Source: Victivallales bacterium
GTDB taxonomy: Bacteria > Verrucomicrobiota > Lentisphaeria > Oligosphaerales > Lenti-02
Assembly (NCBI GenBank): GCA_018648945.1
Contig: JABGQJ010000071.1
Coordinates: forward strand, 1-18,300
DNA length: 18,300 nt
Reading direction: 5' to 3'
Below the pieces are notes generated by a model. It searched no databases. It saw only the letters and a program-made list of their open reading frames with translations, and was not told the origin of the DNA. The translations under genes were made by a program, and so were the position numbers. This document shows, in pieces, positions 1 to 18,300 of this stretch (the first letter of the stretch is position 1; each line of letters begins with the position of its first letter).

Positions 1-1674
1 CTTTCCGGCAAGTGGCACGTGACCAAGCATACTAGCCCCAAAGGCCCCAACTCCGGCTGGCCCCGACAACGCGGTTTCGACCGCTACTTTGGCACCCTCA
101 ACGGCGCGGGCAGCTTCTGGACGCCCGCGACCCTCACCCGCGACAATGAGCCGATCCAACCGACCGGCGACGACTTCTACTACACCGATGCCATCAGCAG
201 TCACGCCGCTGGCTTCATCCGCGACCACCACGCTGAGACGCCCGACAATCCGCTGTTCATGTACGTCGCCTACACCGCGCCGCACTGGCCGCTGCATGCC
301 CCCGCCAAGACCGTCGCCAAATACCGTGGGCGCTACAGGCAGGGCTGGGACGCCATCCGCGCCACGCGCCACGAACGCCAGAAGAAGCTGGGCATCATCG
401 ATCCCGCATGGCAACTGACCGAACGCGATCCGAGCGGCAGCGATTGGGCGGCCCTGCCCCCCGAGAAGCGCGACGAGATGGACCATCGCATGGCGGTTTA
501 CGCGGCCCAGGTGGACCATATGGACCAGGGCATCGGGCGCATCGTGAGCGCTCTGAAGAAAGCGGGCCGATTCGGGAACACCCTCATTCTCTTCCTCGCC
601 GACAATGGAGGCTGTGCCGAGGGCGGCCCCCTTGGCTTTGAGCGCAAGAAGGGCGGCACGCTGGGCGAGGATTCCTCCTTCGCCAGCTACGGTCTTTCCT
701 GGGCCAATGCCAGCAACACCCCCTTCCGCCGCTACAAGCACTGGGTCCACGAGGGTGGCATCTCCTCCCCGCTCATTGCTCACTGGCCTGAGCGCATCCA
801 GGCCAAGGGCGAGCTGCGCAGGACCCCCGCCCACATCATCGATATCGTCCCCACCTGCCTTGCTGCCGCCGGGGCCACCTATCCGGCGCAGCTGGGCGAG
901 CACGTTCTGACCCCCTGCGAAGGCAAGTCCCTCCTCCCCGTGTTCGCCGACGACGCGCTGCCCGACCGACCCCTGTTCTGGGAACACGAGGGCAATCGCG
1001 CCGTCCGGGTTGGGGACTGGAAACTCGTCGCCAAGGGCAAGACCGGGCCCTGGGAGCTCTACGACCTGAAGGCCGACCGGACCGAAACCAACGACCTAGC
1101 CACGAAGAATCCGGACCGCGCCACCGCAATGGCCGCGCGTTGGCAAGCCTGGGCCGAACGCTGCAACGTCCTGCCCCTCTGCCCCAAGAAGCCGAGAGGG
1201 AAGGGGTCCAAGGCAAAGCGCTTCACGCTCAAACAGGGGCAGGATCTCCCCGCCGGGAAGTCCCCTTACGTGAAACGCCGTCCTCTCCGCATCAAAGCCG
1301 AACTGGTCGACATCCCCGTCAACGGCACGATCCTGGCCCAGGGCGGCTCCCGCGCAGGCTACGCCATGTATGTGAAGGACGGTTGCCTCGCCTTCACCCT
1401 CCGCTCCAAGAAGGGCAATGGGACCGTCAAGGCGAAGATCCCGCTGCCGAAGACGGCCACCGTCGAGCTTCTCCTCGCCAAGGACGCGTCCGTCCGTCTG
1501 TCCGCCGACGGCAAGGAGATCGCCTACGGCAGAGTGCCCGAACTGCTCTACGACATGCCCACCGAGGGCCTACAGGTCGGCTTCGACTCCGGGGCCGCCA
1601 TCGGCGAGTACCAGGGGGAGAACCGCTTCACCGGCAAGATCCGCAGCCTCACTCTGGAACTCGATCCGAAGTAG
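1..1674 (+). CDS. Sulfatase (arylsulfatase family S1), 5'-truncated by the window edge, with C-terminal beta-sandwich tail
   Basis: The reading frame is open from base 1 and no start is in the window; the 557 residues present are the C-terminal part. They begin with LSGKWHV, the GKWH motif whose Lys and His line the sulfatase active site. A PHWP motif follows near fragment residue 95 and a DNGG metal-binding motif at residues 201-204. The typical closing section (RVGDWKLV, then WELYDLKADRTETNDLA) comes near residues 330-370. The formylglycine CxPxR motif should lie upstream, outside the window. Residues from about 405 onward are a Lys-rich linker and a beta-strand-rich segment resembling a LamG/concanavalin-like domain, which could bind glycan; that role is inferred. 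The family hydrolyses sulfate esters, usually in the periplasm or outside the cell. The stop lies 5 bp from the stop of the opposing sulfatase gene. The natural substrate cannot be read from the sequence. Confidence 0.93.
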   Translation, partial: LSGKWHVTKHTSPKGPNSGWPRQRGFDRYFGTLNGAGSFWTPATLTRDNEPIQPTGDDFYYTDAISSHAAGFIRDHHAETPDNPLFMYVAYTAPHWPLHAPAKTVAKYRGRYRQGWDAIRATRHERQKKLGIIDPAWQLTERDPSGSDWAALPPEKRDEMDHRMAVYAAQVDHMDQGIGRIVSALKKAGRFGNTLILFLADNGGCAEGGPLGFERKKGGTLGEDSSFASYGLSWANASNTPFRRYKHWVHEGGISSPLIAHWPERIQAKGELRRTPAHIIDIVPTCLAAAGATYPAQLGEHVLTPCEGKSLLPVFADDALPDRPLFWEHEGNRAVRVGDWKLVAKGKTGPWELYDLKADRTETNDLATKNPDRATAMAARWQAWAERCNVLPLCPKKPRGKGSKAKRFTLKQGQDLPAGKSPYVKRRPLRIKAELVDIPVNGTILAQGGSRAGYAMYVKDGCLAFTLRSKKGNGTVKAKIPLPKTATVELLLAKDASVRLSADGKEIAYGRVPELLYDMPTEGLQVGFDSGAAIGEYQGENRFTGKIRSLTLELDPK

Positions 1675-7116: not shown

Positions 7117-9378
7117 ATGCTCGCGAAGCTCCGTGACGAGATGACCCGCTACTACGAGCCGCGGCGCATGGACCGCCTGGCGAAGAACGAGGAGCACATG
7201 GCGCTCCGCCAGCGGCTGTTCGCCGAACTGGACGACGTTGCTGCAGCCCAGCCAGAGCTGCCAGCCGTGCTCCTCAAGGCCCGCAACCTGGAGATCCTGG
7301 CAGAGAGCTTCCAGCCAGCAGTCTTCCGCCACTCCCCCTTCTTCTTCGAGATGGGCATCCGGCCCGCCGAGTGCTGGGGGACGCCGCGCCCGCCGGGCCT
7401 GCATACCTGGATGATCGAGCGACGGCGGCACCTCTGCCACGACCTGCCGCAGTTCGCGAATCTCCGCGCCTTCTCCGCATCCGGCGGCGAGCCACGGGTC
7501 TGGAATATCAACGACGTCTTTGACTTCGATCACCACTGCCCGGGCTACACCCGCATTCTCCGCGATGGCTTCGCCGGCATCCTGCGAGAGATCGGCGAGG
7601 CGCGGCCGGGCGCCGATGCGGATGGCCTTGCCTTCCTCGAAGCGGCCGAACGGGGCATTCACGCCCTGCTGCGCTGTGCTCGGAAGTTCGCGGAGAGGGC
7701 GGAGGACATGCTCGCCAACGAGGACGATCCCGTTGTCCGGCGCAATCTGGAGCGGATCGCCGAAGCGGCCCGACGGGTGCCTCTCCACCCGCCGAGGACC
7801 TTCCACGAGGGACTGGCCGCCCTCCTCTTTGTCCGCGAGGGGATCGCTTCCCTGGAGGGCATCGGGGTCAGTGTCATTGGCCACATCGACCGCCTGCTTG
7901 GGGGTCTCTACGAGCAGGATCTCGCGGCAGGGCGCCTGACTCGCGAAGAGGCGGGGGACATGCTGGCCCGCTGGATGCTGCACACCGACGTGAAATTCCA
8001 CGTGGAGGAAAACGCCTGGCCCGAGACCAGCACCTGCATCGAGCTGGGAGGGTGCGATGCCGCCGGCGAGCCACTCTACAGTGACCTGACCCGCCTGTTC
8101 ATCGAGAGCCATCGCCAACACGGACTGATCAACCCCAAACTCAACTGCCGGGTCAGTTCCCAGAGCCCACGCGAGTACCTGGATTTGCTGAGCGAGACCG
8201 TGTTGGCAGGGCACAACCACATCGCCGTCCTCAACGACGACGTCCTGATCCCCGCCAATGTCCGCATGGGCAAGAGCCTGGCCGACTCCCGCCTCTACGT
8301 CAACGGCGGTTGCCAGGAGACCATCGTCGAGGGCTGCGAGCACTCGGCGGGGGCGTACTACTACTTCAACCTGGCGCGCGTCCTCGACCTCTGCCTGCAG
8401 GAGGCGCATTTCACCGCAGAGGACTACAGCCCAGAAGCCCAGGCGGTCTACCCCAGGCCGGTCACGACCGCTACGTTCGCCGAGTTCTACACGGCCTTCG
8501 TCCGGCAACTGCGACGCGTCATGCACGCGGGGGCCAAGTGGCTGCGCGAGGCGGGAATGCACTGGCCAGAGGTCCTCCCCTGCCCCCTCTTCTCCTCGAG
8601 TCTGACCGGCTGCATCGCCAAGGGCCGCGACTACACCGCCGGGGGGGCCAAGTACAATCCGGCCGGCATCGCTCTGGTCGGCCTGGGGACGGTGGTCGAT
8701 TCCCTTCTGGCCGTGCAGCGAGCCGTGTTTGCCGAGGGCTGGCTCAGCCTGCATGAACTCCGTGCTGCTCTTGCAGGCAACTGGCAGGACCGGGAACCGC
8801 TCCGGCTGCGTCTCCTCGCCCTGCCCAAATTCGGCCACGGCGAAGAGGAAGCAGACCAGCTCGCGGGGACCTTCTCCAGCGACCTGACCGCCATGGTGGC
8901 CGAGATGACCAACGAGCGCGGGGGACCGTACCAGCCGAGCTTCTTCGTCTACTACGCCTTTGTGCGCCTGGGGGTCATGACCCGCGCCACCCCGGACGGA
9001 CGCCGTGACGGCGAGATGCTCAGCCAGGGCGTGGCCCCCTCTCGGCTCCGCCCGGCCAACTCGCTGACCGAGGCCATCCGCGGGCTCGGACAGATCGACT
9101 TCCGCGACTACCCCGGCAATGCAGTGCTCGACGCGCAACTGCCTGCCGGAACCATGCAGGCCGACACCCTTTCCGCCGTGATCGGCACCTTCATCCAGAA
9201 CGGTGGCCCCACCCTCCAACCCAACTGCGTTTCCGTCGAGGACATGCGCGACGCGAAGCTCCACCCCGAGCGGCACCCCGCCCTTACCGTCCGCATCTCT
9301 GGCCTTTCCGCCCGCTTCGTGGCCCTTGCCGACGACGTCCAAGACGAGATCATCGCGCGCGCGGTGATGCGAGACTAG
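7117..9378 (+). CDS. Glycyl radical enzyme (pyruvate formate-lyase superfamily), function unassigned
   Basis: This 753-residue protein has the length of PFL/diol-dehydratase-type glycyl radical enzymes. The active-site loop is LYVNGGCQETIVEG, with thiyl Cys399 and Glu401, preceded by LNDDVLIPANVRMG as in glycerol-dehydratase relatives. A TPDGRRDGEMLSQGVAPS segment precedes the C-terminal domain. The glycyl radical loop is TVRISGLSARFVALADDVQ, with Gly729 as the radical site. Two departures stand out. The residue after the glycine is Leu, where Tyr or Phe is usual. The active site reads GCQET rather than the GCVEP of diol dehydratases and choline lyase. The reaction therefore cannot be assigned to a known subgroup; C-O, C-C or C-N cleavage of a sugar-derived compound is plausible. 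The enzyme should be cytoplasmic and oxygen-sensitive. It needs a radical SAM activase, not present here. The start is supported by AGAGG 8 bases upstream. Confidence 0.93.
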   Translation: MLAKLRDEMTRYYEPRRMDRLAKNEEHMALRQRLFAELDDVAAAQPELPAVLLKARNLEILAESFQPAVFRHSPFFFEMGIRPAECWGTPRPPGLHTWMIERRRHLCHDLPQFANLRAFSASGGEPRVWNINDVFDFDHHCPGYTRILRDGFAGILREIGEARPGADADGLAFLEAAERGIHALLRCARKFAERAEDMLANEDDPVVRRNLERIAEAARRVPLHPPRTFHEGLAALLFVREGIASLEGIGVSVIGHIDRLLGGLYEQDLAAGRLTREEAGDMLARWMLHTDVKFHVEENAWPETSTCIELGGCDAAGEPLYSDLTRLFIESHRQHGLINPKLNCRVSSQSPREYLDLLSETVLAGHNHIAVLNDDVLIPANVRMGKSLADSRLYVNGGCQETIVEGCEHSAGAYYYFNLARVLDLCLQEAHFTAEDYSPEAQAVYPRPVTTATFAEFYTAFVRQLRRVMHAGAKWLREAGMHWPEVLPCPLFSSSLTGCIAKGRDYTAGGAKYNPAGIALVGLGTVVDSLLAVQRAVFAEGWLSLHELRAALAGNWQDREPLRLRLLALPKFGHGEEEADQLAGTFSSDLTAMVAEMTNERGGPYQPSFFVYYAFVRLGVMTRATPDGRRDGEMLSQGVAPSRLRPANSLTEAIRGLGQIDFRDYPGNAVLDAQLPAGTMQADTLSAVIGTFIQNGGPTLQPNCVSVEDMRDAKLHPERHPALTVRISGLSARFVALADDVQDEIIARAVMRD

Positions 9379-9602: not shown

Positions 9603-9620
9603 TACAGCTGGGAGCGTGCT

Positions 9621-11096
9621 ATGGGTAAACTAGGTAATATCTTCGGAGTTCTTGCCCTTCTGCTGGCGGGTGCGGCCGCGTTCTTCAGCTTCACCATCTC
9701 CGAGCGGCGGGCCGAATTCCGCCTCCGGGCCGACAAGATGGCGGCCACGGTAGCGGAAATCGTCCAGGCCATTGATGACGAGAGCGGCACGTCCGTCGCC
9801 TCCGAAGTCAGCTTCACGGCCGGCAACGTGGACGAAGGAACCAAGGGGGAAGGCTCCCTTAGCGCCATCAAGTTCCACGAGGCCAAGGACGAAGGCGGCG
9901 AGTTCGCTGACTTCCAGGGCGTGCTCGAAAAGGCAGTGGACCATGTCAACAGCCTCGCCACACGGCGCACTCAGTTGGCCGAGACCATATACGTCGCAGC
10001 CCAAACTCTGGAATTTCCCGAGGACCAGTTCCCCGAGGAGACGGTAATCGAGGACGAAGACGAAGACGAAGAGGAAGGCGATCTCGAAGGTGACGCGACG
10101 GAAGACGAAGAGGAAGGCGATCTCGAGGGCGCTCTCGAAGGTGAGGAAGAGGGCGAGGAAGAAGAGGAGGAAGTCGAAGTGCAGGGCGTTATGGCCAGGC
10201 TCGCCTACCTCCGCGACCCCGACGTCTTCGCCGATGCCGCCGAGAGGATCCAGGCCCACGTCGCAGCCGTCAAGGATCGCGACGACGCCATGCTGAGTAC
10301 GCTGACCGCCGCTGCCAAGGTGATTGACGAACCGATCAATGAAAAGGCCCTGACCGCGCGCAAGGAAAGCCAGGATGACGAAGGCAACACTGAGCTTGGC
10401 GCCTACCCCTGCGAAGCCACCCTCGGTGACTTTGAGAAGAACGTGGTGGCGCTCGACAAGCGCTCGGCCGCCTACTCCCAAACCCTGGTTGCCGCCATGG
10501 ACAAGGTGAAGCCCCATGAGGACATCTTCGAGTGGAAAGCAGACAAGGCTCGCGTCAAGTCCAAGCGCGAATCGGACTACGGTCCCGCCCACAGCGACTA
10601 CATCAACGACCTGATGAAGCTCAACGAGCAGCTCGACAACCTCGTCGCCGCCCGGGCCGACCTGGTCGCGAAAAAACAGCGGATCGGCGAACTGGAAACC
10701 GACCTCGATGTGGCGAACAAGAAGGTCAATGAAGGCACCAAGACGATGGAGGAACAGGTAGCGACCATCCGGAAGTTGCGCAGGGATCTGGCTGTCGCCC
10801 TTGGCACCGAGGTCCCCACGACACCTGGTGGCGAATCGACGGAGATCGTGGGAGCAGTCACGCGAGTGGATTCCGAGTTCAACTACGTGATTCTGAATAT
10901 TGGTCGGGGGGACAGGGTTGCCCCGGGAAGCGAGTGGCTCGTGGCCCGTGGGGACGAGTACATTGCCAGGGTGAGGGTTGCCCAAGTGCACCAAGACAAC
11001 TGTGTTGCCGACATCCTTCCTCTCGCCATGAATGGCACCGTGAAGCCCGATGACATGGTCATCAGGGTGGACCCCCCGAAGAAACGCCAGCAGTAG
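9621..11096 (+). CDS. Membrane-anchored acidic coiled-coil envelope protein with C-terminal beta domain
   Basis: This 491-residue protein is not assignable to a named family. Residues 7-24 are a hydrophobic helix (GVLALLLAGAAAFFSF) that should act as an N-terminal membrane anchor with the rest in the periplasm. Residues 30-135 are helical. Residues 140-187 are almost entirely Glu/Asp/Gly, with a 13-residue repeat beginning EDEEEGDLEG. Residues about 190-400 are helical, with strong coiled-coil character around 330-395 (KLNEQLDNLVAARADLVAKK). Residues about 408-485 form a compact beta-rich domain (GAVTRVDSEFNYVILNIGRG, then an ARVRVAQVHQD strand). That domain resembles the small beta-barrels of MreC- or FlgT-C-like envelope proteins; this is an impression only. 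GGGAG lies 7 bases before the ATG. It heads a tight cluster with a membrane micropeptide and a lipoprotein, suggesting a shared cell-envelope structural role. Confidence 0.88.
   Translation: MGKLGNIFGVLALLLAGAAAFFSFTISERRAEFRLRADKMAATVAEIVQAIDDESGTSVASEVSFTAGNVDEGTKGEGSLSAIKFHEAKDEGGEFADFQGVLEKAVDHVNSLATRRTQLAETIYVAAQTLEFPEDQFPEETVIEDEDEDEEEGDLEGDATEDEEEGDLEGALEGEEEGEEEEEEVEVQGVMARLAYLRDPDVFADAAERIQAHVAAVKDRDDAMLSTLTAAAKVIDEPINEKALTARKESQDDEGNTELGAYPCEATLGDFEKNVVALDKRSAAYSQTLVAAMDKVKPHEDIFEWKADKARVKSKRESDYGPAHSDYINDLMKLNEQLDNLVAARADLVAKKQRIGELETDLDVANKKVNEGTKTMEEQVATIRKLRRDLAVALGTEVPTTPGGESTEIVGAVTRVDSEFNYVILNIGRGDRVAPGSEWLVARGDEYIARVRVAQVHQDNCVADILPLAMNGTVKPDDMVIRVDPPKKRQQ
10062..10129 (+). 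repeat. In-frame 39-bp direct repeat encoding the acidic segment
   Basis: A 29-base stretch at 10062-10090 recurs at 10101-10129 with one difference (CTCGAAGG versus CTCGAGGG), a period of 39 bases or 13 codons. It encodes EDEEEGDLEG twice within the Glu/Asp-rich segment of the coiled-coil protein and probably arose by tandem duplication. Confidence 0.8.
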
Positions 11097-11120
11097 CGCA
11101 CAGCCAGGGAGCGACCCAAT

Positions 11121-11222
11121 ATGAATAAGCTTGGCGCCATCAGCCTGATCCTGGCCACGTTCTGCCTGGGATATGTCATCTACACGCAGTGGCTGGAAGC
11201 GACGCTGTACGGCCTGCTCTAG
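11121..11222 (+). CDS. 33-residue single-pass membrane micropeptide
   Basis: This short gene reads MNKLGAISLILATFCLGYVI and then YTQWLEATLYGLL before TAG. GGGAG lies 9 bases before the ATG. It begins 24 bp after the coiled-coil gene and ends 20 bp before the lipoprotein gene, so it fills the gap exactly as an operon member would. Residues 5-21 form one hydrophobic helix and the tail is amphipathic. Its opening M-N-K-L-G resembles the M-G-K-L-G opening of the preceding protein, which may indicate a common ancestry or a paired membrane helix. No function is known. Evidence for coding is the ribosome binding site, the spacing and the membrane-helix composition. Confidence 0.68.
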   Translation: MNKLGAISLILATFCLGYVIYTQWLEATLYGLL

Positions 11223-11242
11223 GGCCTGCGTTACCTGAGAGA

Positions 11243-11410
11243 ATGACGATGAGATTCCGCGCGATTCATCTTCTGGCCTTGCTCGCAGCCCTGCTCCTCA
11301 GCAGTGGCTGCGCCTCCATTATCCGCGAGGAAGACGACGCCAACGGCAACGAAATGCCGTGGAACACGCCAGCTCCCTGGGAAGGCCAAGGCATCGGCCT
11401 GCCCATGTAG
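11243..11410 (+). CDS. Small lipoprotein with a WNTPAPWEG tail
   Basis: This is a 55-residue precursor (53 if the second ATG at 11249 is used). A basic start (MTMRFRAIH) is followed by a hydrophobic core (LLALLAALL) and a lipobox LSSGC, so signal peptidase II should leave a lipid-anchored mature peptide of about 35 residues. The mature part is acidic near the anchor (REEDDANGNE) and ends PWNTPAPWEGQGIGLPM, a Trp/Pro-rich motif suggestive of a binding peptide. GAGAGA precedes both start options. An open frame runs back to 11189 but has no ribosome binding site and overlaps the micropeptide. It is the third gene of the compact envelope cluster. I believe short lipoproteins with a similar PWNTPxPWE tail occur in other PVC bacteria, but that is from memory. 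Confidence 0.78.
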   Translation: MTMRFRAIHLLALLAALLLSSGCASIIREEDDANGNEMPWNTPAPWEGQGIGLPM

Positions 11411-11700
11411 GCTCCTGGCGACCCGTTCCCCATGCCGGCCGCTCAGTTGCTGTCGTGCATGGGCGCACTGGCGAATCGGACAGGACTCCATGTCTGGCGA
11501 GAGATCGGTATGATACCGATTCCACGTCAAACCAGGACTCCCCCGCGCACCGGGGCCCGGCGCGCCTACCTGGTTCTCGCGTATGCCAGATGGGTAGGTC
11601 CGCCGGGCCCCGGTGGACGGGTCTTGGGCGATGTTGCGCGGCTTGGGGCGTCTCTCTGTCGCCACATCCGCGATTCCCTACGCACTGGGGCCCGACGCGC
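11411..11700. other. Convergent intergenic spacer with dyad and palindromic repeats, no gene seen
   Basis: This 290-bp spacer lies between the ends of the lipoprotein gene (+) and the FG-GAP/GH84-like gene (-). It holds no open frame with a ribosome binding site. Its recognisable content is a 17-bp perfect dyad at 11504-11520 and three copies of a palindromic GC-rich unit from 11546 onward. Termination for both convergent transcripts probably happens here. Confidence 0.7.
11504..11520. repeat. Perfect 17-bp dyad
   Basis: ATCGGTATGATACCGAT has 8-base arms around a single G. It is AT-richer than the surroundings. It could be a protein-binding site or, with a 3-base loop, a short hairpin at the end of the plus-strand cluster. 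No T tract follows. Confidence 0.55.
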
Positions 11701-11706
11701 CTACCT
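11546..11706. repeat. Three copies of a palindromic GC-rich repeat unit (REP-like)
   Basis: The unit contains CGCACYGGGGCCCGRCG followed by CGCCTACCT. Copy 1 (11546-11571, +) and copy 3 (11681-11706, +) match over 26 bases with two differences, at a spacing of 135 bases. Copy 2 (11593-11615) is inverted and pairs with copy 1 over 23 bases with two mismatches, giving a large hairpin with a 22-base loop. Copy 3 runs over the stop codon of the minus-strand gene ending at 11701. The arrangement resembles REP/BIME-type elements and could act as a bidirectional terminator. Confidence 0.75.
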
Positions 11707-14700
11707 CTTCTTCCGGACCACCGCGTAGTTGAGCATGAAGAACGGCGGGCCACCCGCACTTCCTCCCTGCTCGATGTTCTCGATGGTCAGTTTGCTGCGC
11801 CTCTGCAGCGCCTGGGCAGGGATGCGGTAGGTCTGGCGCGACCAACCGAGGCGGACGTGCGGGTTCTCGCCCTCGAACACCGTGGTCCCGTTCACTTGGA
11901 TGCGGATGTCGCATTTGGCTTCGGCATCGTCATCCTGGGCGCAGAGAACCAGCTCGTAGTCGGTATCGGGAGGGAAGGGCTCAACTCGGAAGGACGCGGC
12001 CATGCTCGGGTTGGCGCTGCGCTTGGCATAGACCCAGGTTGCCAGGCGTTTCTCGCAGCGGTTGGCGTAGTGTTTCGGGGCGAAGCCACCCGTGAAGTCG
12101 TAGGCGGAAAGGAAGGTGTCGACGCCTTCCTTGAGCCCGACTTCGGCCGCCGCATGGCCCTGGGACGTGGCAGCATCCCGGCGGTAGGCCGCAAGGTCGG
12201 GTGCCTCTTCCAGGCCGCGATGGAATCGGTTGACCTGAGCGACATGTCGGTCCATATCGGTCCAGCGCGCCACGGCGGCGGCATTCCGGTTCGCCTGGAT
12301 CTCCTCCCACACGGCATTCACCACGGCGAGTCTCCGCCCCATCTCCGGCAGTTGCTGCGCGGCCCCGGGGGTCCGGCGCAGGCCGAACTTGTCGAAATAG
12401 ACCAGTGCCTGGTTCAGTGCGACCAGCGCCGGATAGGTGTCCGCCCCGACCAGCTTGGTTGCGGCTTCACGGATCGACCGGTCGGGATCATAGGCACTCG
12501 GGTTCCAGCAGTAATCGGCGGCGACGGCCGCCGCCGCTGCGTAGCCAGGCATCATGCAGTTGAACATGTAGGTATCGACCGCCGCCAGGAACCCGTCGTA
12601 GTACCATTCACCGAGAGCGGGGATCGGGTCGGTCACATAGTGGTAGAGGAACATGTGCGGGGTGGCGAAGCCATTCTGCCAATACACGGGCCGCCGTCGG
12701 AGGCGCTTGGTGATCCACGCGGTCATGGCCGGCGTCACCTGAGTCGATTTGACCTTTGGCCCGGTCCAGAAGATCTCGATATCCGCAGGTAGGTTGGCGC
12801 CCAATGCGAACAGATAGTCGTCCCTCTTCTCAGGATACATCGCCGGCGAACTCGGGCCCCAGTAGAAGGGAGGACAGAAGAGGATCTTCGCCCTGGGGTA
12901 CCGTTTCTTGAGTTCCCGGTGCAGGCGCAGGAGCAGGTGTACATCGGCCTCGCGCGCCGAGCCGAACTGCGCCATGTCCTCCTGGCTGATCGGGAAGCGA
13001 TGGTCGTCGTACTTGATGCAGAGGTGGCCGCCAAGCTCCTCCACCGCACATGCCCAACCAAGAAGAACCCGGAAATCACCCTCGTCACCGCTCTGGATCT
13101 TCTTCTCGGCGGCAATGGGATTGTGCCCGGCGTACCACTCGATGCCGAGGGGCGTCAGCCCTGCGGCATAGGCCTTGAGGTCTGCCCGTGTTGCCTCGTT
13201 CAGGGGCTTCCGCCACGCCTCGTAGCCTTCCTTCCGGCTCGGTAATGTCCGGTCCATAAGAGCGGTCTGGAATACGGGCTTGTTGATCTTGAAGGCCACG
13301 CAGTATTCCACCGCATCAACCCAGTTGCCCGCGATGAAGCCACGATTGGCGGCGACCGGGTAGTCCACGATATCCGCTGAACGCACCACGCACTCGCCCG
13401 CTCGCAGGGAGACGAGCTGGGCAAAGGAGGAGACCGCCCACAGCAGGCCCAGCCGATCGTGGCCCTGCAGAATGACCACCTTCCGGTCAGCCGCTTCGGT
13501 GCACACCATGAGATAGCCTTGCTCTCGCTCGGGCACTGCCTGGGTGCCCAGGAGTGCCTTGGCCCCCGGAGCGTTCCCGAACAGAATGACCGTATCGACT
13601 TGCGCCGCGATGCTCTCCACCAGCTGCACCTTTCCCCCGTACCTCTCCACCCGCTCACGCAAGCGCCTGACCAGCGGGCCCTCCGGCTCGATCTCCTTCC
13701 CCAGAAGCAATCCCACGGTGCGCAGCGAGCAGTACTCGTCACGGTACGTTGCCTGCTGCGGAGTTGGCAGGACGACGCCGGTGTAGAACGGCATGCGGAG
13801 CGAGTCGGCATGGTCGGGACCCCGTACAGGGGGCGGCAGCTTTCCGAGCGATGCCGCCGCGTCGTCCTTCACAGGCAGCACTGTCTCCTTCTTCGGCCTG
13901 GGGGGCACGTGAACGGCGGCTTCCTTGGCAACGGTCGTTGGCTGGAGCGCTGGAGCGGGGCGGGGCGCGAACCGTCCGTCGTTGAGGTAGACCGAGACTC
14001 GTTTGCTGCCATCGGTCACCGCCAGGTCGGGGAATCCGTCGCCATCGATGTCACCTGCCGTCACCTGGTAGCAAGGAGCCTTCAGGGTCTGGTCGAACCC
14101 CTTCGGCGTGGTCGGGAACGTCGTGCCCTTCGCCTGCCGCCAGACGTGGATCTGGCGTTTGGAGTCGTCGGCGACGATGAGGTCGGCCATCCCGTCTCGA
14201 TCCAGATCGGTGGTCAGCACCTGGCCACCCACACCCTCAAGCAGGGCTGTGGGTTCCGGATTCCTGGCAAACCCAACCGGAGACCGTTGCTGGTATAGAG
14301 CCACAGCCCGCTTGCCCGATGCACGGTCGGCTAGCCCCGCCACGATGTCGGGGCGCCCGTCGCCGGTCAGGTCGGCAACCTGTACGCTTGCCACCGGCAA
14401 TGGGGTCTCGATCTCGAGCAACTCGGTGAGGTCTTCCGGCTTGACGGTCATCGTGCCGAATGGACCGTAGTAGACCCGGATGGCTTTGGCTGCCAGGAAC
14501 ACCATGTCGTTGTGCCCATCCTGATTCAGGTCGGCGATCGTGCCCCCTTGGTTGTCGTTCTGCTTTGGCCCGTAGCAATAGCCGGCGGCAAACACATCGC
14601 CTCCGCGCCACTTGCGCCAGGCAGGCCCGGGGAGGAAGTCCATCAACCCGCCCGGACTGAGCCGCCCCACCGCCAGCTGGCGGTCACTGTCGTTCACGTT

Positions 14701-15171
14701 CGCTGATGTGTGGAGTTTCTGAAGTGCCTCGGAACCGAGCAGGACGTGCAGGAAACGCCGCGTTTCCTTGATCGCCAGGTCGGTCTTCCCATCCTGGTCG
14801 AAATCCCCGGCCCGCATGGCCCATGGCGACCGGACGGAGATCTCACGGTCTGCAACTTCGGGGAAGGTCCCCTCGGGGCCCTGGTAGAAGAGCAGAACCC
14901 GGTCCCTGTCGTGGTCGTAGACCTCCCCAGCAACGGGCAGACGATGCCAACGGGCGACCGCCAGATCGCAGCGGCCGTCCTGGTTCAGATCCCCCAGCTC
15001 GACCTGGTACGGATACGCCAATCTCCCGACTGTCATGTTGGGGGCATCCGGGAAACCTGCCTGCAGGGAGCCGGCCAAGCCAAGCAGGGAGAGAACGAGA
15101 GCACGGGAGAGCATCTGGCACATGCCACGGGTTGCGCCTTGGGTAGAGGGGGTCACCATGAGTCGCCACAT
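11701..15171 (-). CDS. Secreted FG-GAP propeller fused to a GH84-like glycosidase
   Basis: The protein has 1156 residues from the first ATG. An ATG at 15123 (residue 17) is an alternative start that gives a cleaner signal peptide (SRALVLSLLGLAGSLQAG). Residues about 45-400 hold six FG-GAP/VCBS calcium-loop repeats (GDLNQDGRCD, GDFDQDGKTD, ADLNQDGHND, ADLTGDGRPD, TDLDRDGMAD, GDIDGDGFPD), which should form a beta-propeller. After a Pro-rich linker, residues about 470-610 resemble the GH20b/GH84 N-terminal domain (VILQGHDRLGLLWAVSSFAQLV). The barrel follows, from ANRGFIAGNW. The Asp pair D722-D723 in IKYDDHRF matches the catalytic DD of GH84 beta-N-acetylglucosaminidases, and IFWTGPKV is a GH84 hallmark. 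The later WDNYPVND-type motif reads YWQNGFATPH. A helical region and a C-terminal beta-sandwich end the protein. Substrate is likely an amino-sugar glycan (inference). It lies 24 bp after the GH106-like gene. Confidence 0.85.
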   Translation of the reverse strand: MWRLMVTPSTQGATRGMCQMLSRALVLSLLGLAGSLQAGFPDAPNMTVGRLAYPYQVELGDLNQDGRCDLAVARWHRLPVAGEVYDHDRDRVLLFYQGPEGTFPEVADREISVRSPWAMRAGDFDQDGKTDLAIKETRRFLHVLLGSEALQKLHTSANVNDSDRQLAVGRLSPGGLMDFLPGPAWRKWRGGDVFAAGYCYGPKQNDNQGGTIADLNQDGHNDMVFLAAKAIRVYYGPFGTMTVKPEDLTELLEIETPLPVASVQVADLTGDGRPDIVAGLADRASGKRAVALYQQRSPVGFARNPEPTALLEGVGGQVLTTDLDRDGMADLIVADDSKRQIHVWRQAKGTTFPTTPKGFDQTLKAPCYQVTAGDIDGDGFPDLAVTDGSKRVSVYLNDGRFAPRPAPALQPTTVAKEAAVHVPPRPKKETVLPVKDDAAASLGKLPPPVRGPDHADSLRMPFYTGVVLPTPQQATYRDEYCSLRTVGLLLGKEIEPEGPLVRRLRERVERYGGKVQLVESIAAQVDTVILFGNAPGAKALLGTQAVPEREQGYLMVCTEAADRKVVILQGHDRLGLLWAVSSFAQLVSLRAGECVVRSADIVDYPVAANRGFIAGNWVDAVEYCVAFKINKPVFQTALMDRTLPSRKEGYEAWRKPLNEATRADLKAYAAGLTPLGIEWYAGHNPIAAEKKIQSGDEGDFRVLLGWACAVEELGGHLCIKYDDHRFPISQEDMAQFGSAREADVHLLLRLHRELKKRYPRAKILFCPPFYWGPSSPAMYPEKRDDYLFALGANLPADIEIFWTGPKVKSTQVTPAMTAWITKRLRRRPVYWQNGFATPHMFLYHYVTDPIPALGEWYYDGFLAAVDTYMFNCMMPGYAAAAAVAADYCWNPSAYDPDRSIREAATKLVGADTYPALVALNQALVYFDKFGLRRTPGAAQQLPEMGRRLAVVNAVWEEIQANRNAAAVARWTDMDRHVAQVNRFHRGLEEAPDLAAYRRDAATSQGHAAAEVGLKEGVDTFLSAYDFTGGFAPKHYANRCEKRLATWVYAKRSANPSMAASFRVEPFPPDTDYELVLCAQDDDAEAKCDIRIQVNGTTVFEGENPHVRLGWSRQTYRIPAQALQRRSKLTIENIEQGGSAGGPPFFMLNYAVVRKKR

Positions 15172-15195: not shown

Positions 15196-18100
15196 CTAGT
15201 CGCTCAGCACCTCCACGGGGCCGAGCAGTCCGGAGGTCTGGAGCTTCCAGTTGCCTTTGATCGTGATGTTGGTCTGCGTGTAGCGTTTGGCCTGCGGCTT
15301 GCCACGGTCACCGACCAGGCGGTTGCGCCAGGAGTTGACCACGGTGATCTCAAGCCGGTTTTTCCCAGTCTTGAGTGCGTCGGTCATCTCAATGCGAAAG
15401 GGCTTGGTCCAGGTGACGCCGAGATCCCGGCCGTTGAGCCTGACGGCGGCGATGCCGGTATCTGCCACCCGGTTGAGCCGCAACCAGTAGCGCTTGCCCG
15501 GAATGGGGGTCGTGTCGAAGGTGTTCGTGTAGGTCGCCTTGCCGGAGTAATGCCTGATGCCCTCGTCCGCGTGCTGCGTCCAGTCGGTCAACGCGTTGAA
15601 CACGATCGACTCGGGTCCACCCCACCCTTTGTCGAAACCAACCTGCCACGGGCCGCCGGCCTCCGCGACAGTCTTCAGGAGCGGGTAGTTCGAAGGGGCC
15701 GTGCCCTGCTGCGTGGCAGGGATGGCGGCGCGGAAGAAGACGAAGCAGGAGCCATGAGGATCAAACTCCATGGGGATAAGCGTCCGGCCATCCACCTGCC
15801 TGAAGGCACCCACCGTAGTGATCTCCCCGGTCAAGGGGTTCCACAGCTCCGGCTGCTTGCCGCTGACCCGGAACGCCAGCGGAACGGACCGCGCCTCCTC
15901 CGTCTGGTTGCAGACGAAGTAGACATCGGCACCAACGAGAGTGTAGTGGATGTACTCGTAGTCCGCCTGCCGCTTGGTGGCGAACGCCTCGAAGTCCGGC
16001 GCGACACCGTCGCCCTGCAGGAACGCGCGGGCGCTCTGTCCCCAGGCCAGGCGACCGACGCCTACCGGTCGCCCCCCCTTCCTCAGCGGCGCGTCTCCCC
16101 ACAGCCGGTCGGCCAGCGCATGGAATTCGCGCTGGGCAGCCTCGCCGCCGACCCGACTGACCAGCCGCTCCGGCTTCGACCCCAGCACGGTCGCGCCCTG
16201 ACCCAGCAACTGCTCGACCTTCTTCAGCGCCGCCATGGACAACACCTTGTGATCAGGCAACACCAGCACGCGATAGCGGACCCCGCCAGGCACCACGATC
16301 CTGCCTTCGGCAACCTTCGCCTGGATCAGCGCGTCCTCGTTGGTCGCATCGTAGTCGTAGCCCGGCAGCGCACCGGCTTGGTTGAACCCCTTGTTCACGG
16401 CGAAGTTGGGGACGTGGTCGCCGTAGTAATAGAGCACATCGGCCACAAACGTGCCTTGCTGAGCGATGAACTGCACGCGGTTGATGTAATCCATAAAGGC
16501 GTCCGACTCATCCCACCAGGTGACCTGCGGGTTCACGTGCGTGCCGGCGAAATACTCCTGCCCCGGCAACCCCATCTCCTTGGGGGAGCAGGTGAAGGTG
16601 TGGAAGAAGATCATGTTCAGCCCTTCGCAGAACTCGTAGTCCATGGCTGGTTTCTGCGCGTGCCACAGCACGTCGTTCCAGTGCGGGCCGATGGTCGTGA
16701 AGGCTTCTGCGCCAACGTACCGTTTGCCGTAGATGTGCGCCGCCGATGAGGCCTGCTTCACAAAAAAACGGTTCGCGGGCCTGGGGCGGTGCGGCGATTT
16801 GGCCCAGAACTCGCTCATCACGATGTCGCTGTGCGAGTAGTTCGTGATGCCGTCGAGTGGGCCGGCATGCGGGCCGGAGCACTCCGGCTGAGTCCCCATG
16901 CCATACCGGGCCGCGTGCTCCGCGAAGAGCTTGTAGTGGTTCTCCGAGATACAGTGGCCAATGGTCTTCCGGAAGTCCGCCAGAAAGGCATTGCTCACCT
17001 CGCGACTCTCCACGATCTTGCCGGCCAAGACGGGCAGATACTCGGTGAGGTCGTACTTGTTGAAGCGTTCGAACTCCGCCGCAAAGCCGGGACTCCAGTT
17101 CATCCCGCCACATTCCCAGCTATCGGTCTCCATATGGGTCAACACGGTGCCGGCCATGGGCCCCGCTTTCTTCAGCAGCGGCTCCACCACGTCGTACCAG
17201 TAGTGGTTGAAGGCCTCCTTGCTCAGATAGTCGAGGGCGTGGCCAGTCCAGTTGGCGCTGGAGGTGGAGACGTGGGCGCGGGTGGGCGTATAGCCGACCC
17301 GCAGCACGGTCCATTTCCCCGCCGGTACCTGCCATTTCAGGACGCCGCCTTTCCCGACGCTGCCGGTGAGATCGACGATGTCCTTGAGCAGGGCGTCTTC
17401 CTCGCCCTCGACGGAGGGATAGTCGTTGAGCAGATAGCGGCAGTCCGGTGCCGAGCCACCCAGCTCGCGCGCCGCGATCTTGCCAGACAGGTCACGGATG
17501 GTCTTACTGCCCCCTCCCATAAGTGGCTTGCCGTCCTTGCCCAGCAGGCAAACGCTAGCCACCTGCACATTGCGGGGAGCGCCAGGGGAGCCTCGGTCAT
17601 AGGCGGCCTCGAACACCAGGCGGAAGGCCCGGCCCGTGGTCGCGCCGAAGGAGAGCCGGTTCGCCCCATCCTTCAGGTGGAAGGTCTTCGTACGCTCTTC
17701 CGTGCCCACCGTCTCGATGCGACACGACTTGGGGCTGTAGCCCCTCCGCCCCACAAGCTCAACCCCGGATACCGTTACTGGCTTTGCGAACGAGACCTCG
17801 ATCCACTCCGGCGACTTGGCCGTCGGTCCCTCGCCACTCTTCTTCCCGGAGCTCACCCAGAACGGACCACCGTTGAGATTGGTCACGGGGTATTCCGCTT
17901 GCTGCGAACTCACCTTGAAAGTGAACGAGCGATCTTCCACGCGCTTGTCTGGCCAAGCCAGCACGCGGATGTCCCGATAGTAGCTGTAGTTGGACCTGGG
18001 GGTCGGCAACTGCCGCTCGGTCTGTCCCGGACCTTCGACCTGGATCTCCGACCAGGTGACCGCCTTGGCCTTGTCGTCAAGCGTGACCCGAGGGCCACCC

Positions 18101-18300
18101 AGATTCCAGCCGCTTTGGATGGAGAGCCCCAGCTTCAGGTCCAGCCGCTTGGCTTCCGCAAGGGCGTGCAGGTAGAGCTCCGTCCATTCATCACTGCCGT
18201 ACATCGGGCCGGCGGGAACCCGTTTGTTCCCCCCTTGGCTGTACCCTCCCGCATCGAAGATCATCGCGCCGCTGAAGCCCTTGTCAGCCATCGCCTCCAG
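15196..18300 (-). CDS. GH106-like alpha-L-rhamnosidase, 5' end outside the window
   Basis: The frame is open to the window edge (codons LEA precede the first internal Met at 18291), so the 1031-residue stretch is the C-terminal bulk of a larger protein. KGFSGAMIFDAGG at the start is a barrel-strand motif of GH106-type enzymes. A discoidin-like beta domain follows (SPEWIEVSFAKPVTVSGVEL). Then come conserved acidic motifs: HMETDSWE with NWSPGFAAEFERFNKYDL (about 17145-17050), MSEFW, and GAEAFTTIGPHW (about 16715-16680). The C-terminus is a beta-galactosidase-like sugar-binding fold (WLRLNRVADTGIAAVRLNG) ending SGLLGPVEVL, typical of the family. Family members remove alpha-linked L-rhamnose from complex plant or algal polysaccharides. 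It is probably co-transcribed with the FG-GAP/GH84-like gene 24 bp downstream. Any signal peptide is outside the window. Confidence 0.9.
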   Translation of the reverse strand: MEAMADKGFSGAMIFDAGGYSQGGNKRVPAGPMYGSDEWTELYLHALAEAKRLDLKLGLSIQSGWNLGGPRVTLDDKAKAVTWSEIQVEGPGQTERQLPTPRSNYSYYRDIRVLAWPDKRVEDRSFTFKVSSQQAEYPVTNLNGGPFWVSSGKKSGEGPTAKSPEWIEVSFAKPVTVSGVELVGRRGYSPKSCRIETVGTEERTKTFHLKDGANRLSFGATTGRAFRLVFEAAYDRGSPGAPRNVQVASVCLLGKDGKPLMGGGSKTIRDLSGKIAARELGGSAPDCRYLLNDYPSVEGEEDALLKDIVDLTGSVGKGGVLKWQVPAGKWTVLRVGYTPTRAHVSTSSANWTGHALDYLSKEAFNHYWYDVVEPLLKKAGPMAGTVLTHMETDSWECGGMNWSPGFAAEFERFNKYDLTEYLPVLAGKIVESREVSNAFLADFRKTIGHCISENHYKLFAEHAARYGMGTQPECSGPHAGPLDGITNYSHSDIVMSEFWAKSPHRPRPANRFFVKQASSAAHIYGKRYVGAEAFTTIGPHWNDVLWHAQKPAMDYEFCEGLNMIFFHTFTCSPKEMGLPGQEYFAGTHVNPQVTWWDESDAFMDYINRVQFIAQQGTFVADVLYYYGDHVPNFAVNKGFNQAGALPGYDYDATNEDALIQAKVAEGRIVVPGGVRYRVLVLPDHKVLSMAALKKVEQLLGQGATVLGSKPERLVSRVGGEAAQREFHALADRLWGDAPLRKGGRPVGVGRLAWGQSARAFLQGDGVAPDFEAFATKRQADYEYIHYTLVGADVYFVCNQTEEARSVPLAFRVSGKQPELWNPLTGEITTVGAFRQVDGRTLIPMEFDPHGSCFVFFRAAIPATQQGTAPSNYPLLKTVAEAGGPWQVGFDKGWGGPESIVFNALTDWTQHADEGIRHYSGKATYTNTFDTTPIPGKRYWLRLNRVADTGIAAVRLNGRDLGVTWTKPFRIEMTDALKTGKNRLEITVVNSWRNRLVGDRGKPQAKRYTQTNITIKGNWKLQTSGLLGPVEVLSD

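Follow-up and report, generated by a model that had tools for sequence, protein, structure and literature searches.

Three consecutive genes in the window, the 18,300-nucleotide stretch of DNA analysed here, encode a coiled-coil protein (CC), a membrane micropeptide (MP) and a small lipoprotein (LP) (Table 1). Judged by sequence comparison, the trio is a real, old and apparently undescribed envelope gene set of this phylum. The first-pass annotation had proposed three successive plus-strand genes with short gaps, and all three open reading frames were present as described. It had also known of no named system of such composition, in agreement with our searches: no Pfam or NCBIfam match above cut-off was obtained for CC, MP or LP of the window. 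A family scan of the members of four alignments (A3, A4, A5 and A8) gave weak matches only, partly among the matches listed. No description of CC, MP or LP was found in the literature, a weak negative because only open-licence papers were covered.

CC and MP are separated by 24 nt. LP has two candidate ATG start codons, at 11243 and 11249. The gap of 20 bp before LP reported earlier is right for the first ATG and becomes 26 nt for the second. The start at 11249 is preferred, because GAGAGA (11237-11242) lies 6 nt ahead of this ATG but touches the one at 11243. Purine-rich ribosome-binding sites had been noted too, and likely ones were recovered as GGGAG before CC and MP and GAGAGA before LP. 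A simple scan of the + strand between 9300 and 11900 found no promoter-like or terminator-like site, and neither an Rfam family nor a tRNA was found within the window.

Table 1 Features of the CC-MP-LP gene set, in window coordinates.
Feature	Position	Strand	Basis
CC, 491-aa membrane-anchored coiled-coil protein with predicted C-terminal beta barrel	9621..11096	+	ORF, homologues, models
MP, membrane micropeptide of 33 aa, one helix, Q23 and E26 nearly invariant	11121..11222	+	
LP, small lipoprotein of 53 aa, Cys21, mature form 33 aa, motif PWNTPAPWE	11249..11410	+	
Putative ribosome-binding site of CC, GGGAG	9610..9614	+	sequence reading
Putative ribosome-binding site of MP, GGGAG	11107..11111	+	sequence reading
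N-terminal membrane helix of CC, ~residues 8-27	9642..9701	+	hydrophobic stretch, by eye
Glu/Asp tract of CC, ~residues 138-187, lineage-specific insertion	10032..10181	+	alignment, model
Predicted C-terminal six-stranded barrel of CC, ~residues 407-485	10839..11075	+	models, fold searches

Conservation was followed in a class set of 197 genomes around a Victivallales relative (G001, the genome of locus L001), with the relatives recorded as Victivallales or Lentisphaeria. CC was detected in 186 of these genomes (profile A3, a 30-row alignment, E ≤ 1e-5) and LP in 168 (A5, E ≤ 0.01). Adjacency was counted among the matches listed, which covered 142 genomes with CC, 147 with LP and 117 with both. 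LP was downstream of CC on the same contig and strand in 114 of the 117, with 16 to 1,005 nt between the match ends (median 236). In the remaining three genomes, the two matches were on separate contigs. The Victivallales loci L001 and L002 carry, on one strand, CC, a 40-aa MP and an LP with PWNTPANWEGQG, and among those of L005-L032 whose sequence extends far enough, nearly all repeat the CC-MP-LP order. Loss of co-conservation had been named beforehand as an observation that would speak against the gene set; the comparison was run, and the trio is co-conserved.

In a sample of the whole phylum, class included, CC was detected in 321 of 387 genomes (E ≤ 1e-3). Among the matches listed, those of A3 outside the class draw mainly on the C-terminal half and in part on coiled coil. 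Aligned by hhalign, A3 (class CCs) and A8 (25 other CCs) matched in the barrel and the helix preceding it, the last one (99.9% probability, E 1.7e-34). Two sets of 20 loci were inspected outside the class. In the first, chosen for a strong CC match (L053-L072), LP followed CC in 19 loci; the LP match was weak in L067, and L069 had none. The second was chosen for an LP match (L073-L092), and 17 of its loci had no A3 match, with weak ones in G434, G377 and G258. CC was beside LP in seven of these (L075, L078, L085, L086, L087, L089 and L091), and L092 had a 128-aa coiled coil without barrel beside LP. No recognisable CC was found beside LP in the other 12 (L073, L074, L076, L077, L079-L084, L088 and L090), and a search of those 12 genomes with A8 gave no match or the coiled-coil part only. 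LP was thus found without a recognisable CC in 12 of the 20 loci picked by LP, so it does not need CC. In L081, L082 and L088, a glucose-6-phosphate isomerase gene is ahead of LP and no CC is recognisable. A short barrel-like match was seen in G333 in the A8 search. Conservation of order and spacing, suggested earlier as a check, held for the trio within the class; beyond it, the claim applies to CC and LP, with MP added in 13 of the 20 loci picked by CC.

MP is a genuine gene. A hydrophobic MP-like ORF of 28-60 aa was present between CC and LP in 27 of 28 loci (window included; missing in L017), all with an assigned LP and with close relatives among them. When the 28 gaps were dinucleotide-shuffled over 200 rounds, such ORFs averaged 0.42 per round and never exceeded two. 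In the MP frame, pooled pS was 0.43 and pN 0.11 (11 pairs), versus pN of 0.15 and 0.19 against pS of 0.18 and 0.04 in the two alternative frames (5 of these 11 pairs). Both MP and LP are under purifying selection. The scan detected MP in 18 of 20 further class loci (L033-L052, of which L033 shares its genome with L018). MP is readable in L036, where A5 detected no LP in the examined stretch; in L048 there is no MP, and LP begins at the CC stop. Of the out-of-class loci L053-L072, L053-L064 and L070 have an MP; none was found in the other seven. We guess that these 13 loci are from Kiritimatiellia. A joint alignment of 29 MPs from inside and outside the class has one Gln and one Glu at ≥90%.

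The start of MP overlaps the end of CC in several class loci, as ATGA in L016 and as a GTG inside the CC end in L021, L022 and L030. The 13 out-of-class MPs begin inside CC, 14-32 nt upstream of the point where its stop codon ends. The end of CC is under double coding, since its last codons also encode the MP start in the +1 frame; this was seen at L021 2681, L022 2708, L030 1511, L053-L064 and L070. The genes, their co-conservation and the selection on MP and LP are directly supported. It could be argued that there is no functional unit, and that three unrelated small envelope genes stay together by chance, as the flanking genes vary and some lineages are without CC and MP. However, the order is kept across class-level divergence, the starts overlap and MP is under selection, and we consider chance very unlikely.

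LP has the features of a lipoprotein, a predicted signal peptide with a lipobox Cys after it, and the Cys is invariant in 71 aligned LPs. Among the 27 LPs of A5, the mature protein is 28-36 residues long and consists of a linker and a motif. Conservation is confined to the lipobox and this short motif near the C-terminal end, of the PWNxPAxWE type. None of the 27 has Asp after the lipobox Cys. The rule that Asp at position +2 directs sorting comes from E. coli, where the absence of Asp means the outer membrane.

The class model detected LP in 283 of the 387 phylum-sample genomes, class included. With the wider model A9, built from 71 LPs, the number was 357, although A9 contains members from the searched genomes, which match by construction, and ~44 of the 357 matches were between E 1e-6 and 1e-3 by our own count of the table. 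As a rough control, the second-best A5 match in 60 loci (L033-L092) scored <14 bits, versus ≥21 bits for most LPs; exceptions were L067 (10.5 bits) and L070 (15.9 bits), and no LP was detected in L036 and L069. LP was present even in the 0.9-Mb genomes G221 and G235. G221 (0.916 Mb) was taken as Xiphinematobacter, whose genome has 915,884 bp according to the accessible part of PMC4607532, which gives 2,664,102 bp for A. muciniphila. G221 had matches to LP, Omp85 and LptD, and none to CC in the A3 and A8 searches. LP is probably basic to the cell envelope, because it is kept even in a relative with a drastically reduced genome. In L067 (G272, taken as A. muciniphila), two tandem CCs precede a lipoprotein whose motif is degenerate (A5 E 0.32). 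Tandem CC paralogues outside the class were seen in L053, L059, L061, L067 and L069.

The homologues of CC, 12 at first and 31 in all, align along their length, and the alignment has a conserved MGKL start. The first-pass annotation had put its emphasis on a 48-residue Glu/Asp tract, which did not hold up. The tract is a lineage-specific insertion, found in the window protein and two of the 31 homologues (P0001, 95% identical, and P0002, 78% identical), that is, in three of 32 aligned proteins, and is absent from the other rows of A3. It was accordingly rejected as a hallmark of CC. Two structure models of CC (pTM 0.40 and 0.43) have a membrane helix, helices and one barrel; in one of them, pLDDT was <50 at the helix of residues 2-55 and at residues 140-195, the region of the acidic tract. 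What had been called a small beta domain is corrected here to a predicted six-stranded barrel.

The CC barrel is predicted to resemble FlgT-C, F1-ATPase crowns and, loosely, MreC. Its predicted fold is of the FlgT-C type (PDB 3w1e and 8z5n chain 0), but in CC a membrane helix and long helices take the place of FlgT's other domains, and the F1-ATPase crowns fit about as well. The window CC gave no FlgT sequence-family match (Pfam E ≤ 1, NCBIfam E ≤ 0.1), and no flagellar genes were found among the window proteins scanned. Family matches of CC were weak coiled-coil ones, among the matches listed. A PDB sequence search with the window CC alone gave no match; with A3, it gave weak coiled-coil matches (best E 9e-4; only CC was searched).

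CC may share with MreC the plan of membrane helix, coiled coil and beta barrel; that of MreC has tandem barrels, and one barrel was seen in the CC models. The trio might serve wall synthesis or cell shape, with CC as an MreC-like scaffold and LP as an Lpo-like activator peptide. Consistent with this, the Foldseek list of the second CC model contained 9a5z_B (from a YpmB-MreC model, chain B taken as MreC; E 8.2e-4) and MreC 2j5u_A (E 3.3e-3). However, these hits had a high rmsd (21.4 and 11.3, respectively). Among the matches listed, the out-of-class CC of L057 had an NCBIfam MreC match below the cut-off (E 0.0063), but the window CC had no MreC match in Pfam (PF04085, E ≤ 1) or NCBIfam (E ≤ 0.1). 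Moreover, MreC is a separate gene in 57 of 59 class genomes, and on this ground the idea that CC is the missing MreC was rejected. MurG-like or MurA genes adjoin LP in some loci. By eye, a MurG-like gene follows LP in L018-L020, L024-L026, L028, L029, L031 and L048; the gene after LP in L033 and L047 reached 242.6 and 248.5 of 250.25 bits for TIGR01133, just below the cut-off, and MurA follows LP in L077. The murG neighbourhood is nevertheless limited to part of the class, and a wall or shape role of this kind is unlikely. Other neighbours are a TrmL-like gene at the L034 locus, glucose-6-phosphate isomerase ahead of CC in L085, RsmI after LP in L087 and a heptosyltransferase-like gene after LP in L084. 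Because the genes flanking the trio vary, no pathway is firmly implicated.

LptM (YifL) and Lpp are very short lipoproteins like LP, but the conserved motif of LP differs and is near the C-terminal end. Lpp ends in Lys, and the window LP does not. A further alternative is that LP is an LptM-like factor that helps LptD or another outer-membrane barrel to mature, with CC as an accessory often nearby. The small size and near-universality of LP fit this, as do NCBIfam LptM matches, all of them weak, in 8 of the 27 LPs (best E 0.019). However, the match of the window LP to NF047847 (LptM) reached 10.6 of 27.7 bits and was limited to residues 1-21, the signal peptide and lipobox. With no NF047847 match above cut-off, LP was rejected as a member of the LptM family, which is described in the accessible part of PMC10567701. 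Omp85 was found in all 10 genomes tested, including G221 and G235. LptD was found in six, including the reduced genome G221 but not G235 or G001, and the four without it have LP or an LP locus, although the distant family model may miss LptD. Because LptD was matched in six of the 10 genomes, it leaves the LptM idea undecided, and overall we rate this idea as quite improbable.

PqiB/PqiC-type pairs combine an inner-membrane protein and an outer-membrane lipoprotein, a general plan like that of CC and LP. The window CC had Pfam matches (E ≤ 1) that included no MCE domain, as in MCE/Pqi systems. The PVC signature protein CT421.2 is a small conserved protein of obscure function reported from Verrucomicrobia and Lentisphaerae, and the accessible part of its source (PMC3444138) calls a 53-aa region of it well conserved, in contrast to LP with its conserved lipobox and short motif.

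Conserved order, strand and spacing support the earlier proposal of a single envelope unit. The inner-to-outer link that came with it is possible, and we infer it from topology. In its simplest form, the CC barrel would bind the LP motif directly, and the sole job of the trio would be to set the intermembrane distance. The topology of CC and LP and their adjacency in the class, among the matches listed, agree with such a tether, and the fold predicted for the CC barrel also occurs in FlgT, which the accessible part of PMC7693769 presents as a periplasmic H-ring protein of the Vibrio flagellum. On the other hand, mature LP has only ~33 aa, and LP is retained where only a truncated CC, or none, was found. 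A two-ended tether cannot account for all that LP does, because the majority of out-of-class loci picked by LP are without recognisable CC, and we hold it to be improbable.

The reading that we prefer, tentatively, is that LP acts as a docking peptide for a core envelope machine, held at the outer membrane by a lipid anchor, and that CC and MP are its inner-membrane-anchored partner. The LP Cys would occupy the outer membrane's inner leaflet, and the short linker would present the motif to the machine. The partner of LP should be a core machine, because LP occurs in several lineages, and in an Omp85-keeping symbiont, where no CC was found. This machine would be nearly universal and act in outer-membrane protein or LPS assembly, or in wall synthesis. 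CC would form the inner-membrane end, with one membrane helix, long periplasmic helices that possibly cross much of the periplasm, and the FlgT-C/MreC-like barrel farther from this membrane; there the barrel would contact LP or the machine that LP serves. MP would be a single-span subunit that stabilises or gates CC in the membrane, made in step with CC, since in many relatives the MP start and the CC stop overlap. The outer-membrane location of LP, every contact and the machine served are what we infer. A bolder version is rather doubtful: LP would be a phylum-defining, near-essential outer-membrane factor, a lipid-anchored peptide of roughly 30 residues that serves, by its PWNxPAxWE-type motif, a universal machine of the outer membrane or wall, with CC and the translationally coupled MP as trans-envelope partners in a module not described elsewhere.

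Knowledge of envelope biology in this phylum, the gut bacterium Akkermansia included, comes largely from analogy with E. coli. LP is nearly universal and has no family name, and the MP gene is easily missed. Both have clear sequence signatures, and together they offer a testable handle on the peculiarities of this phylum's envelope.

Just 3' of LP (11541-11622 and 11676-11706), the window has a 29-nt inverted repeat (86%). The stretch has a folding energy of -73.3 kcal/mol (z -6.3), with a half-copy (87%) 135 nt further. It resembles a REP-type element, or else a strong hairpin ending the unit. Upstream of CC is a pyruvate-formate-lyase-like glycyl radical enzyme (7117-9378), below all listed NCBIfam cut-offs, and a similar ORF is upstream of CC in L001 (3448-5757). 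By their predicted gene content, the window surroundings are polysaccharide-degrading. On the - strand, a 1156-aa FG-GAP and beta-N-acetylglucosaminidase protein (11701-15171) adjoins a GH106-type protein (15196-18291), and a sulfatase is at the opposite end of the window (1-1674, + strand).
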